Shown here: positions 3,038 to 14,639 of the stretch, in pieces
Position numbering within the stretch: position 1 is the first letter of the stretch
Layout of the letters: every line of letters begins with the position of its first letter
Origin: a virus
Strand: one strand, 5' to 3'
DNA: 39,140 nucleotides
Virus record (IMG/VR): IMGVR_UViG_3300043431_000108
Location: 1 to 39,140 of that record
Position numbers and translations under genes: made by a program
Notes under the pieces: generated by a model
The model's database searches: none
What the model was told of the DNA's origin: nothing
What the model saw: the letters and a program-made list of their open reading frames with translations, nothing else

Positions 3038-3322
3038 TTAAAAAGAATTAGGAATTATGGGTACAGTAATCACTTTATCTTCTTTTAAAATAACTGACAT
3101 ACTTTGCGTTCCAAACAACATATCCACATTAACCCATACCCAAATTTCTGTGCCGTCACTTTTTGATGATACAGAATAAGGCGATCCCATTTGAGAAGTC
3201 AATTCATATTTCGACATACCAACATGAAGTTGACGCGCATTATTCCATTTTATATTGCCACTGCCAGCCATTGAGCAAGCTGATAACATAATTGCCGCTA
3301 ACATTAAACTAATTTTTTTCAT
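3038..3322 (-). CDS. Small outer-membrane lipoprotein, BamE/SmpA-like
   Basis: A 94-residue protein with a lipoprotein signal peptide: MKK, hydrophobic stretch, then lipobox LSAC with the lipidated Cys at residue 16. The mature part contains LHVGMSKYELTSQMGSP and DGTEIWVWV, which follow the pattern of the SmpA/OmlA (BamE) fold. It is the last gene of the leftward operon, convergent with the endolysin. In phages such lipoproteins can act in superinfection exclusion or as an outer-membrane lysis partner. Which applies here is not shown by the sequence. The start overlaps the preceding small gene by 14 bases. Confidence 0.8.
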   Translation of the reverse strand: MKKISLMLAAIMLSACSMAGSGNIKWNNARQLHVGMSKYELTSQMGSPYSVSSKSDGTEIWVWVNVDMLFGTQSMSVILKEDKVITVPIIPNSF

Positions 3323-3434
3323 TTTTCGCTCTCCATTTTTGATAGGCTTCTTCAGGCGTTATGCCAACGCAGACGACAGTAGTCTGCGTGTAGCATAGCC
3401 AAAATTTACCGATTCTTTTTAATCGTGGTTTCAT
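3309..3434 (-). CDS. Small phage protein, 41 aa, unknown function
   Basis: Starts at the ATG ending at 3434 (MKPRLKRIGKFWLCYT) and contains GITPEEAYQKW. This resembles the small phage proteins with a G-x-T-P-E-E-A-Y-x-x-W ending that occur in many early operons. The start overlaps the upstream stop in an ATGA arrangement, and the end overlaps the lipoprotein gene start, so it is translationally coupled on both sides. No function is known to me. Confidence 0.7.
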   Translation of the reverse strand: MKPRLKRIGKFWLCYTQTTVVCVGITPEEAYQKWRAKNEKN

Positions 3435-3580
3435 TTACTGCGTTCACTCACAAATACCGGTTGCATTGGATTTTCTTCAAACCACTTTAACTTATCCATG
3501 TAAGCCGCCATTTCTTCAAAGCGTAGTACTTTAATTATGGGTTCATCGCTCAATTTACCGCTTTCAAAATCGTATTTCAT
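3431..3580 (-). CDS. Small hypothetical protein, 49 aa
   Basis: The open frame starts with ATG ending at 3580, encodes MKYDFESGKLSDEPIIKVLR and MDKLKWFEENPMQPVF, and stops in an ATGA overlap with the next gene. It starts within a few bases of the end of the DUF3310 gene. It is charged, mostly helical and has no membrane segment. Tight spacing in the leftward operon supports it as real. Function unknown. Confidence 0.65.
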   Translation of the reverse strand: MKYDFESGKLSDEPIIKVLRFEEMAAYMDKLKWFEENPMQPVFVSERSK

Positions 3581-3581
3581 T

Positions 3582-4106
3582 TTAAAACCCCTCTGTTGCA
3601 ATCAATCGATTTAAATACCACTGCGCCTTTTTTATATCCTCAGCACCGTTTTTGAGCTTGTATCGCCATTGATACTTTAAAATGTTTCCGCGTAAATAGC
3701 CGATAAATTCTTCTTTGGTCAGCATCGATTCAATAGCATCAATACATTCCACTTTGCCGCTGTTGTAGTGGGGTGGACTGTTTACCGCTTCACTTGTTTT
3801 AACCGGTGCGCCTGCGTTAACTAATTCTTTTTGCTTGTTTAAATGCTTGATGACATTATCAAGCCGCACTGGTGAAACCTCAACTACAGGCGCAGGCGCG
3901 GGTGAATAATCCGCTAATTTATAAAGATAAGCACCATCAATTCTATCTTCAGATTTAATAACTTCACCAGATTTAATCAATTTTTGCATTTGAAAATCAA
4001 CTTGATGCTGTTTAAGATCAGTTAAGTCTGTAATTTCACGCATAGTCATACCCGTGCGCTGGCCGTTTTGAAGTATTTGTTTAATCATATCAATGTCATC
4101 CCCCAT
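3582..4106 (-). CDS. Winged-helix N-terminus plus DUF3310 domain protein
   Basis: A 174-residue protein. Residues 1-60 look like a DNA-binding winged helix (MTMREITDLTDLKQHQVDFQ, then KLIKSGEV). A proline-rich linker (PAPAPVVEV) follows. Residues about 108-172 match DUF3310: SPPHYNSGKVECIDAIESM, FIGYLRGNILKYQWRYKLKN, DIKKAQWYLNRLI. DUF3310 is shared with the T7 gp1.7 nucleotide kinase family, so a nucleotide-related role is possible. The fusion to a DNA-binding module suggests regulation or DNA localisation instead. The start overlaps the HNH gene by 22 bases. Confidence 0.8.
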   Translation of the reverse strand: MGDDIDMIKQILQNGQRTGMTMREITDLTDLKQHQVDFQMQKLIKSGEVIKSEDRIDGAYLYKLADYSPAPAPVVEVSPVRLDNVIKHLNKQKELVNAGAPVKTSEAVNSPPHYNSGKVECIDAIESMLTKEEFIGYLRGNILKYQWRYKLKNGAEDIKKAQWYLNRLIATEGF

Positions 4107-11484: not shown

Positions 11485-12236
11485 TGTTGTTCTCCTAAAA
11501 ATTTAATAAATGGGTTAACCCCGTGTTGTACAAAAATGTCGTCAGTTATACCCATGCGGTTTTTGCTAACGCTTGACGCTGCACTGGTGCATTGGATAAT
11601 GCGTTCACCCGTGCTTTTTGCTTTTGATTTCTTTTGCTCATCTTTCATCACAAAAGTTTCAAGGCGCATATAACCCACAAAGTCTACATCGTCAATGTAG
11701 TGGCTTTGGCTTTTCTTCTCCATTTTTAAACCAAACTGTTGATATGGTTCGCTATCGGGCAGGTCAATCGTGTTTAATTCTGCATGGCTTAAAAAAATGA
11801 TGTTCATGTCTTTTTGTTCGACCAATAACTGACAGGCTTTTCTAACTCTGCCGTGCATACTGCTCAATGCCTGATAACCAGCACCATAACCACCCATTGC
11901 AAGTGCTAAGGCTTTCGCGCTGGTGTTGCCTTTGGTTACTTCTTCGGTGAACAAACGATCTAATTTGCTAATTGAGTCAATCACCAATGTTTTATATTGA
12001 TGATCTTCGTTGATAAGTGCTAAGAGTTGTTTATAAATTTCATCGCTACTGTTTAACAACGGAAAAGCGTCTGGCATTGCATTAGCAGGAACAGATGACA
12101 AGCCATCTTCTGCGCGTATAAAGATTGGTGCGGGGAATGTTGACGCTAAACTTGTTTTACCGATACCAGCTCCACCGTAAATGGTAAAAAGACGGTATTT
12201 ATTGACGGGTTTGCTAATTGTGCTTAAAAGGCTCAT
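11481..12236 (-). CDS. Sak4-like RecA-fold ATPase (single-strand annealing/recombinase)
   Basis: ATG ending at 12236 follows GGAGCAATACA. An upstream in-frame ATG at 12251 has no site. The protein (251 residues) has Walker A YGGAGIGKTSLA near residue 20, Walker B TLVIDSIS near residue 80, and NIIFLSHAE later, as in phage nucleotide-binding AAA_24/Sak4 proteins. These act as minimal RecA-like recombinases with a phage SSB. It is the first gene of the leftward operon, so it is transcribed from the promoter at 12288-12316. Confidence 0.88.
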   Translation of the reverse strand: MSLLSTISKPVNKYRLFTIYGGAGIGKTSLASTFPAPIFIRAEDGLSSVPANAMPDAFPLLNSSDEIYKQLLALINEDHQYKTLVIDSISKLDRLFTEEVTKGNTSAKALALAMGGYGAGYQALSSMHGRVRKACQLLVEQKDMNIIFLSHAELNTIDLPDSEPYQQFGLKMEKKSQSHYIDDVDFVGYMRLETFVMKDEQKKSKAKSTGERIIQCTSAASSVSKNRMGITDDIFVQHGVNPFIKFLGEQQ

Positions 12237-12358: not shown

Positions 12359-12526
12359 ATGACACCCGAAGAAATGAAAGCAAAACTGCGTTTAATGAAC
12401 CTTAGCAAAGTAGCGGAGGAGTCTGGGATTTCACGAAACAAGCTGCACCGCTTTGTTAATCAGAAGAAAAAGTCGCCTTATGAAGTTACCGTTGAACGCT
12501 TAGCGCAATACCTGGGGAAATTATGA
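12359..12526 (+). CDS. Cro-sized helix-turn-helix regulator, 55 aa
   Basis: MTPEEMKAKLRLMNLSKVAE leads into an XRE/Cro-type helix-turn-helix (about residues 15-37, SKVAEESGISRNKLHRFVNQ). The protein ends VERLAQYLGKL. A CAGGAGC site lies about 10 bases upstream. It is the first rightward gene, overlaps the primase start as ATGA, and lies next to the divergent promoters and the 29-bp element. An autoregulator or early/late switch is inferred. No larger CI-like repressor is present. Confidence 0.8.
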   Translation: MTPEEMKAKLRLMNLSKVAEESGISRNKLHRFVNQKKKSPYEVTVERLAQYLGKL

Positions 12527-14370
12527 ATGATCTAATTAACGCTATACGCGCATCAGGTATCAATCCACCATCACATGTAAAGACAGACGGCAGCATAACG
12601 CGCTTTGCCACCACAGGAAAAGAGAAGTCTGGCTGGGTATCGCTATTTATTGACGGCAAAGGCGCGTGTTATGGTGACTGGAAAAGCGGAGAGCAGCACG
12701 TTTGGTTTGCTGACGGTTTTCGCAGTACAGAAAACGATTACGAGCGAGAGCAAGCCATTGAGAAAGCCAAGGAGGAGCGCGATTTTGCCTATAGTAACGC
12801 AGCTTTTAATGCTCAGGAGCTTTATGTCAAGCTACCCCATGCGCTAGATCACGATTATCTAACCCGCAAAAACGTTAAAAGTGACGCGGGACTACGCTTA
12901 TATGATAGCAAACTTGTTATTCCTGTTTATGGCATTGATGGCGAAATCCAATCATTGCAATTTATCGCAACAGACGGCACGAAACGCTTTTACACGGGCG
13001 GTAAAATGCAGGGTGGTTATTTTACTATTGGTAAGCCTGACGACATGGTGTTAATTGCGGAAGGTTACGCCACCGCCATGACACTACATGAGGCTACAGG
13101 AAAATGCGTTGTAGTTGCTTTTAACGCTGGTAATCTTAAACCAGTGTGCGACATAGTGCGCAGCCAATACACTGGCAGGGTAATTATATGCGCTGATAAT
13201 GATGCAAGCGGTGTAGGTATCGAGAAAGCCAATAAGTGCGGTGTAGAAGTGCTGCACCCGCCTATTGTTGGTGAGGATTTTAACGACATGGCGGGCAGAG
13301 CGGGAATGGCTGCGGTGGCTGATTTTGTTATTGGTACAAAGCAAAGCCTGTTTGTATCAGTGCATGATTTGATGGCAGGAATCACCCGCGCTGACTGGGT
13401 GATTAAAAACTTGCTAGAGAAAGGTTCAAATACTTTGCTTTTTGGCGAGTCTGGCGCGTGTAAATCGCTGATCGCGATGGACTGGGCGTTCTGTATTGGT
13501 AATGGCATACCGTGGCACGGTCACAAAACCAAGAAAGGCACGGTGGTCGTGATTGCTGGGGAAGGTCATCGAGGGCTTGCAATGAGGATGCAAGCTCTCA
13601 AACAAAAATACAATATGAATCCTGACAACATCTATTTTAGCACAAAAAGCGTTAATTTGCTCGATGTAGACGCGGTTATGCGCGTGACCAGTATATTAGA
13701 TGGGTTATCGTTGGAACAGCCGCCATGCGCCATTTTTATCGACACCATGCACAGAAATATGCACGGTGACGAGAATAGCAGTGAAGACATGGCTTTATTC
13801 TTGGCTAATATGGAATTATTGGCTAAAAAATACAATGCCGCCATTGTGCCAGTGCATCACAGTGGTCATGGCGACAAGGGCAGGGCGCGTGGTAGTTCAG
13901 CCATAAAAGCGGGCATGGACGCTGAATTTTGCATGACAAAGAAATCCAAGATGGAAGTAACGTTTAGTTGCACCAAATCAAAAGATTTTAGCGCAGGCAA
14001 TAACATGGATTTCAGAATAAAAGTGGTCGATTTAGAGGGTGATTGTTTTTATGACGAGGACGAGCAAAAACAGATTGAGGGTGTTTATTTAGAATATGTT
14101 GGCAGCCAAGAAATCGTAAAAGAATTAAAAAAAGGCACAACGCAATGTTTAGAAGGTTTAAAAAATGCCATAAATGCCACTCAAAAATTGGGCGGTGGGC
14201 GTACATTAGTGGGTGAAAATGAAATGGTTGTATCACTTGAAGAATGGCGTCCATTCGCTTATGAGTACATAACAGACAAAAATAACAGACGTTCTTTTGC
14301 TGATGGTGTAAAAGATTTATTAAATCAACAGCTTATAGGAAATGATGGTGTTTATTATTGGCTTAAATAA
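12523..14370 (+). CDS. Primase-helicase (Toprim plus RecA-like ATPase)
   Basis: A 615-residue replication protein. The N-terminal 60 residues (GWVSLFIDGKGACYGDWKSG) match plasmid/phage primase leaders. The Toprim domain follows, with LIAEGYATAMTLHEATG (Glu near 180) and VIICADNDASG (near 222). The C-terminal half is a RepA/AAA_25-like hexameric ATPase: Walker A FGESGACKS (307-315), VIAGEGHRG, IFIDTMHR (Walker B-like) and VPVHHSGHG. Walker A carries Cys313 where Gly is usual. It would prime and unwind at the phage origin, using host polymerase since none is encoded here. The candidate GTAC-rich origin follows its stop immediately. Confidence 0.9.
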   Translation: MNDLINAIRASGINPPSHVKTDGSITRFATTGKEKSGWVSLFIDGKGACYGDWKSGEQHVWFADGFRSTENDYEREQAIEKAKEERDFAYSNAAFNAQELYVKLPHALDHDYLTRKNVKSDAGLRLYDSKLVIPVYGIDGEIQSLQFIATDGTKRFYTGGKMQGGYFTIGKPDDMVLIAEGYATAMTLHEATGKCVVVAFNAGNLKPVCDIVRSQYTGRVIICADNDASGVGIEKANKCGVEVLHPPIVGEDFNDMAGRAGMAAVADFVIGTKQSLFVSVHDLMAGITRADWVIKNLLEKGSNTLLFGESGACKSLIAMDWAFCIGNGIPWHGHKTKKGTVVVIAGEGHRGLAMRMQALKQKYNMNPDNIYFSTKSVNLLDVDAVMRVTSILDGLSLEQPPCAIFIDTMHRNMHGDENSSEDMALFLANMELLAKKYNAAIVPVHHSGHGDKGRARGSSAIKAGMDAEFCMTKKSKMEVTFSCTKSKDFSAGNNMDFRIKVVDLEGDCFYDEDEQKQIEGVYLEYVGSQEIVKELKKGTTQCLEGLKNAINATQKLGGGRTLVGENEMVVSLEEWRPFAYEYITDKNNRRSFADGVKDLLNQQLIGNDGVYYWLK

Positions 14371-14480
14371 GCGTACGTACGCGTACATTTTGCTAATAAT
14401 GTACGTATGTACGCATGGGTACATCTGAGCGTACGTACGCGTACACCCCCCTTTAAGGGGTGTACGCATGTACGGTGTAC
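14371..14480. repeat. GTAC-rich repeat block, candidate replication origin
   Basis: Twelve GTAC sites occur at 14373, 14377, 14383, 14401, 14409, 14419, 14431, 14435, 14441, 14462, 14470 and 14477. A 17-base word GCGTACGTACGCGTACA is present at 14371-14387 and 14429-14445, 58 bases apart. TGTACGCATG occurs twice (14408, 14461). GTACACCCC/GGGGTGTAC (14441-14449 and 14457-14465) form a perfect inverted repeat. The block starts one base after the primase-helicase stop and is followed by A/T-rich DNA. An iteron-type origin or protein-binding array fits; this is inference. Confidence 0.6.
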
Positions 14481-14520
14481 GGCATTTTAAAAAAATTCAG
14501 CATTAAAAAACTATATTTGT

Positions 14521-14526
14521 TATAAT
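14521..14526 (+). promoter_or_regulatory. Possible -10 box upstream of 14538 element
   Basis: A perfect TATAAT hexamer lies 12 bases before the structured leader. No -35 box at the normal spacing is seen (CAGCAT at 17 bases), so this is a weak candidate for a promoter of the small-gene zone. Confidence 0.3.
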
Positions 14527-14537
14527 TGTTTCGGGTT

Positions 14538-14639
14538 GTGATAAACCTAAATTAGTGAAAAGTTAACAAAAACCGAATTCAAGTTAGAGCCGCAACTTTT
14601 CACGGCAATTATCACCTAACAAAGAAGACGGTTTTTTTT
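14538..14639 (+). promoter_or_regulatory. Structured leader with mutually exclusive stems, attenuator-like
   Basis: GTGATAA (14538-14544) pairs with TTATCAC (14609-14615). Nested inside, GTGAAAAGTT (14555-14564) pairs perfectly with AACTTTTCAC (14594-14603). In addition AAAAACCG (14568-14575) in the inner loop can pair with CGGTTTTT (14629-14636), which runs into eight T (14632-14639). The last pairing crosses the other two, so it needs a pseudoknot or excludes them, as in attenuators. It lies 14 bases before the gene at 14653. No known riboswitch is recognised. Confidence 0.5.

Follow-up and report, generated by a model that had tools for sequence, protein, structure and literature searches.

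The DNA analysed here (the window, 39,140 nucleotides) is a circular phage genome with a 127-bp terminal repeat. The genome has its own terminase and structural genes. The best matches of the terminase are found in Caulobacter and enterobacterial phages (approximately 42-51% identity), and a genome scan with the primase detected weak alphaproteobacterial relatives only. The gene at 12523-14370 (plus strand) encodes a primase-helicase of 615 residues, which is the proposed initiator. According to the domain search, Toprim_3 corresponds to residues 176-261 (E-value 2.5e-10), and AAA_25 corresponds to residues 278-450 (E-value 3e-31). The domain matches include no SF3 family and no DUF927 or D5/Primase_Cterm helicase domain, the helicase being AAA_25. 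Several annotated relatives are named 'repA'. A Cro/C1-type helix-turn-helix protein of 55 residues is encoded at 12359-12526 (plus strand).

Directly 3' of the TAA stop codon of the primase-helicase gene, an array of GTAC words begins (14371-14481, no strand), as the original prediction had stated. The twelve words start at 14373, 14377, 14383, 14401, 14409, 14419, 14431, 14435, 14441, 14462, 14470 and 14477, and most of them are part of CGTACG or of CGTACA/TGTACG. They are the proposed initiator binding sites. The recount confirmed 12 GTAC in the 108 bp of 14373-14480, and the remainder of the window contains 57 (63.9 expected). Every other 108-bp stretch of the window contains two or fewer. 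In first-order randomised windows (n = 300), the maximum was 5 GTAC per 108 bp. Random sequences with the dinucleotides of the block (n = 5,000) contained 3.7 GTAC on average, and none of them reached 12. The GTAC density of the block is far above chance.

By the repeat search, an 18-nt direct repeat, AGCGTACGTACGCGTACA, was detected at 14370-14387 and at 14428-14445 on the plus strand, the second copy being located 58 bp downstream of the first. The spacing is as predicted, and the repeat is one nucleotide longer than the 17 nt first reported. The inverted repeat is also longer than reported (11 bp rather than 9). It forms the hairpin GCGTACACCCC-CCTTTAA-GGGGTGTACGC (14439-14467, plus strand), with perfect arms at 14439-14449 and 14457-14467 and a 7-nt loop. 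The A/T-rich DNA predicted after the block corresponds to 14483-14532 (no strand), a possible melting region. This stretch is among the least stable 0.4% of the 50-bp windows, with several other places in the genome less stable. No phage or plasmid match to the region was obtained by blastn. The 16-mer GCGTACGTACGCGTAC was found in ten records of viral contigs which belong to the same group, and in seven unrelated records in which the word forms no array. Near the GCGTACGTACGCGTAC match of two contigs outside the group of the window, L063 (approximately 3250-3600) and L065 (approximately 1060-1420), GGTTCT/AGAACC is repeated, which is possibly another array of a similar kind.

Relatives of the primase-helicase are encoded at 52 loci of the scanned viral contigs. 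The comparison covered the window together with 42 relatives. An array is located at the stop codon in every relative with enough readable DNA after the gene. The search for arrays in related phages, suggested with the original prediction, thus found them at the same spot and with the same layout, mostly with other words. The GTAC spelling is confined to the closest relatives, namely ten loci with primases 91-96% identical in the best segment. In relatives with primases approximately 84-89% identical, nearly all GTAC are changed to ATAC or related words, and the layout is retained. Other relatives have TATACA/ATACA words, partly mixed with GTACA, and TCCCG/CGGGA words characterise a third set. 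The array represents one of approximately ten classes of word. Both repeat blocks persist among the relatives, as do the hairpin and its position. The stem sequence of the hairpin varies among the classes with the pairing retained, and the loop resembles CTTTAAG, CTTTAG, CTATAG or TTTA. Outside the array, the number of GTAC is close to the expectation in all array classes.

The 43 sequences were grouped by the body of the primase-helicase, its C-terminus, the array and the downstream DNA. In all of them (43/43), one class of array word is found per C-terminal type. The body and downstream types combine freely with the C-terminal types. The same body is found with different C-termini: body 2 with C-terminus 1 or 2, body 4 with 2 or 3, and body 5 with 4 or 6. 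According to the partial Mantel test, the array is correlated with the C-terminus given the neighbouring gene segment (r = 0.83, p = 0.0005, the smallest p possible with 2,000 permutations). The correlation of the array with the downstream DNA given the C-terminus is r = 0.13. The part of the protein which changes with the array word is the C-terminal region of approximately 95 residues (521-615; 14083-14367, plus strand). Windowed identities between L010 and the window are 77-100% up to approximately residue 510 and 37-82% after it, and the array class differs. The body of L039 is mostly 89-100% identical to that of L029, and its C-terminal part is like those of L015 and L023 (67-82%), as is its array.

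In the pairs L006/L012, L007/L013, L024/L015, L017/L002, window/L010 and L039/L041, the replacement is restricted to the C-terminus and the array, with conservation of both flanks. By pairwise DNA comparison, the boundaries of the exchange are located approximately 290 nt before the stop codon and 150-160 nt after it. The C-terminal domain and the array seem to form a specificity cassette which is inherited and exchanged together. As the C-terminus and the array adjoin, co-exchange is expected even without binding and is no proof of it. Recognition is therefore also argued from the concerted change of the words and from the exclusion of the helix-turn-helix protein.

The concerted change of approximately ten words is a stronger argument than co-exchange. 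A change of words is also found in a second phage group, which was located via the type A RNA described below. Between L160 and L168 of this group, GTCCCA/TGGGAC takes the place of AGGGCG/ACGCCC, and the linkers, e.g. GACAAAAACAGCAT and ATGTTGTGCGAACTTTT, are kept. The identity of the two proteins is mostly 62-94% in the bodies and 38-57% in the C-termini.

The original prediction had named the 12359-12526 protein, together with the primase-helicase, as a candidate binder. Copies of this helix-turn-helix protein are identical in L002/L024, in L012/L015 and in L029/L030/L039, and the array words beside them differ. The helix-turn-helix protein is thus an unlikely reader of the array. Across such word changes, the primase-helicase body likewise stays (nearly) constant. 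As both are (nearly) unchanged, the C-terminal approximately 95 residues are the remaining linked protein part that changes, and the reader of the array is probably this C-terminal domain. By eye only, the C-terminus shows a helix-turn-helix and wing pattern, 'VSLEEWRPFAYEYI...SFADGVKDLLNQQLIGNDGVYYW'. Comparison with solved structures (PDB) and Pfam gave nothing significant and no homologous fold. The match of the C-terminus to that of the Rhizobium phage 16-3 protein is good (hhalign, 91.5%, E 8.6e-7), and a weak match to the Alteromonas-type C-termini was detected.

Arrays were also found in named phages that encode distant relatives of the protein. Each has an array of its own word after the helicase stop codon, above all other stretches of the locus: GGTTCA x12 in Alteromonas phages XX1924 and PB15, GGTACA x11 in Idiomarinaceae phage 1N2-2, GGGACA x6 in Salicola phage CGphi29 and x8 in ct3Oc712 (L128), GTGACA x10 in Rhizobium phage 16-3, CGGACA x5 in Vibrio phage 1.076.O, and CTGGAA x6 in Roseobacter phage CRP-406. 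Just after the GGGACA array of ct3Oc712, two copies of the DnaA-box-like TGTGGATAA are present, a pair which would fit an origin. In a random draw of 142 alphaproteobacterial genomes, 18 AAA_25 loci were found, and a clear array after the stop codon was observed in 5 of the 15 readable loci (L142 CGTACA, L145 CCGTAC, L149 TGTGAA, L155 and L159 GGGACA), L158 being ambiguous. In L155 and L159, 10-12 GGGACA are spread over approximately 300 bp after the AAA_25 gene, and apparently enter the next reading frame. A separate search gave two further genome loci with an array (L137 TTCCAA and L138 ATGACA). In the distant phages and the alphaproteobacterial genomes, a hairpin is usual too, with the stem altered and still paired.

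The array-bearing proteins have AAA_25 in common, and its partners vary (Toprim, Prim-Pol or DnaB-N). The array thus accompanies the helicase and no particular type of primase. Among VapE-type primases, the picture is mixed: an array is present in Marinobacter phage PS3, and none was found in Mano and FoX2. No array was detected after the gene of ct76p945, related by similarity and annotation, or of 82E32.3, which has AAA_25 by Pfam. No description of such arrays after AAA_25 phage helicases was found in the open-licence literature, which is weak evidence for novelty.

From the sequence comparisons and from analogy, the block is likely the part of the phage origin to which the initiator binds; its reader would be the C-terminal domain of the primase-helicase, and replication would start there. 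As in iteron origins, a short word is present in multiple copies far above chance, and the array adjoins the gene of the putative initiator. The original reading, an iteron origin or an initiator-binding array, gains from the position kept in the readable relatives and from the concerted word change that follows the C-terminal domain. In the proposed mechanism, the C-terminal approximately 95 residues would physically bind the repeated short word, and the binding would gather the primase-helicase on the array. The hairpin and the adjacent A/T-rich stretch may help strand opening. Then the helicase would be loaded, and the fused Toprim primase would make the first primers. The C-terminal domain and the array would swap together; the word is lineage-specific and the layout is constant.

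Against the origin reading, the block is no turning point of the GC skew, and some AAA_25 loci have no array. The cumulative GC skew of the circle, which had been suggested as a check, has its minimum near 12,000, approximately 2.4 kb from the block. The minimum coincides with a switch of the transcription direction. Thus, the GC skew is uninformative on an origin at the block and speaks neither for nor against it.

Several known systems resemble the arrangement in the window. In the case of SaPI/PICI Rep and SCCmec Cch2, the initiator is a helicase, sometimes with a fused primase, the repeats are located right after the gene, and a C-terminal domain reads the repeats (PMC7581432; PMC6092414). 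The PICI origin directly follows the 3' end of rep, and autonomous replication of pri-rep-ori segments is described (PMC6092414). The window shares the helicase initiator and the repeats directly after the gene, and a C-terminal specificity is suggested here by covariation. However, the SaPI/SCC initiators have DUF927 or D5-type helicase domains (PMC7581432), whereas the window helicase is AAA_25 (RecA-like) with a Toprim primase and is encoded in a phage genome. In PICI, two iteron sets flank an A/T-rich region, whereas the window has the two 18-nt copies, the hairpin and further words, with most of the A/T-rich DNA after the array.

The helicase of the phage P4 alpha protein is of the SF3 type, unlike the AAA_25 helicase of the window. 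At residues 180-185 of the window primase-helicase, EGYATA is present, a motif of P4 alpha. No sequence link was found between the P4 winged-helix domain and the C-terminus of the window protein. As the helicase domain differs, we do not assign the window protein to the SaPI family or to the P4 family. P4 alpha binds its origin repeats via the winged helix, and it combines a Toprim-type primase, a helicase and a C-terminal origin-binding domain in one protein (PMC4234260), as proposed for the window.

In pRN1-type elements, a stem-loop origin is located 3' of the replication gene. For pRN1 ORF904 and the Bordetella phages BPP-1/BIP-1, the origin is proposed directly 3' of the primase-helicase gene, and the structure of the stem-loop is kept and not its sequence, as in the window hairpin (PMC4234260). 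These systems have no iterons, and have an archaeo-eukaryotic primase and an SF3 helicase, whereas the window combines a small hairpin with an iteron-like array. RSF1010 has a RecA-fold RepA-like helicase, and its origin has iterons and hairpins (PMC4234260). In RSF1010, a separate RepC reads the iterons; in the window, the reading is tentatively assigned to the C-terminus of the helicase itself. A separate reader of the RSF1010 type was not found in the linked helix-turn-helix protein, which does not covary with the word. By analogy with SaPI Rep, PICI, P4 alpha and pRN1, the window block is read as an initiator-binding origin part.

The DNA after the array differs among the relatives. Inside the A/T-rich stretch, TATAAT (14521-14526), which is -10-like by eye, is located approximately 40 bp past the last repeat. 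The strict promoter scan did not report it; the sequence and its conservation in relatives suggest a promoter. A predicted pseudoknotted RNA (type A) follows at 14533-14639 (plus strand), and its T8 end is located before an ATG. The type A RNA is approximately 105 nt long and is preceded by TATAAT, and its five interleaved helices (P1-P5) all show compensatory changes among the relatives. It is present in part of the group only. By pattern scan, the RNA was detected in 29 contigs. In 13 contigs of the second phage group (L160, L168 and 11 others), its position is likewise after a primase-helicase gene and an array, the word of which is yet another one. The matches in L164 and L174, which have no array and no structure, look like chance.

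In further members of the group (L003, L006, L007, L009, L012-L015, L022-L025, L042 and L051), the same site is occupied by a type B element, the structure of which is unrelated to type A. It is found from approximately 167-188 nt after the primase gene onwards and has the hairpin AACCAACCAACCCAG...CTGGGTTGGTTGG, which in many members is followed by ACTATCAA...TTGATAGT around a variable insert. The insert of L051 is tRNA-like, yet ARAGORN finds no tRNA in the type B region. Rfam gave no match for the type A RNA or the type B element.

The type A RNA is possibly part of the origin region. The origin might then be an exchangeable compound of the word array, the hairpin and a promoter-driven pseudoknotted RNA which helps to start or control replication, and matched swaps of reader and word would prevent the use of an origin by a related phage in a co-infection. 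We regard this extended scheme as conceivable but rather improbable.

As the array is located just upstream of the promoter-like element, a regulatory role is possible. The array would then be an operator bound by the C-terminal domain or another phage protein, which switches the promoter-like element at 14521 and thereby the downstream RNA and genes. The short distance between TATAAT and the last repeat, and the end of the exchanged block near this site, are consistent with an operator. However, the word follows a part of the helicase and not a repressor, and the genes after the array vary widely while the array stays. Analogous arrays are found after AAA_25 helicases with unrelated downstream genes, and ten or more sites with a hairpin exceed the usual operator. 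Thus, we consider it unlikely that the block is an operator in place of an origin; the array could be both at once.

The block may instead act as RNA, giving the primase message a structured 3' end for termination, stabilisation or processing; in favour, the stem varies in sequence with the pairing preserved and the GTAC words are self-complementary. However, the hairpin is not followed by a T-run, and the terminator scan marks just weak stems of 5-6 pairs elsewhere in the block. The block matches no Rfam family. What each class conserves outside the hairpin is a short word repeated in both orientations, a pattern typical of sites for DNA-binding proteins, and the repeated word follows the C-terminal protein sequence. 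A function as RNA is thus very unlikely.

Just as improbable is that the array and the C-terminal domain are mere neighbours which recombine as one piece, the array having another reader. The two touch, and since identical flanks are needed for recombination, exchange as one unit is expected regardless of binding. However, approximately ten words which change in concert need a trans-acting reader, the linked candidates that were compared, namely the primase-helicase body and the helix-turn-helix protein, stay (nearly) unchanged across the changes, and the words of L160/L168 change inside conserved linkers. The remaining proposal, that the twelve copies of one palindromic 4-base word attract a methylase, nuclease or restriction enzyme specific for GTAC, as target or as decoy, is hardly credible, because relatives with primases approximately 84-89% identical rewrite nearly all GTAC within the same layout, and GTAC elsewhere is near the expected number in all classes.

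If the initiator-binding reading is true, the array marks the replication origin in many phages with AAA_25 primase-helicases, whose origins are mostly left unassigned; a look right after the helicase stop codon would then be a simple way to locate it. The approximately ten natural pairs of C-terminal domain and word, some of them in near-identical proteins, would make a recognition code testable by domain and array swaps. The initiator-binding reading would also suggest that phages change the initiator-origin specificity as a unit, like plasmids and pathogenicity islands, with consequences for co-infection and satellites.

The window is depleted in GGCC (18 observed, 67.5 expected), GATC (57 observed, 133.8 expected) and CCGG. 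GATC and CCGG are also depleted in the loci of array classes 1 and 2, and hardly in those of class 3. The differing depletion of GATC and CCGG among the array classes suggests different host restriction pressure.
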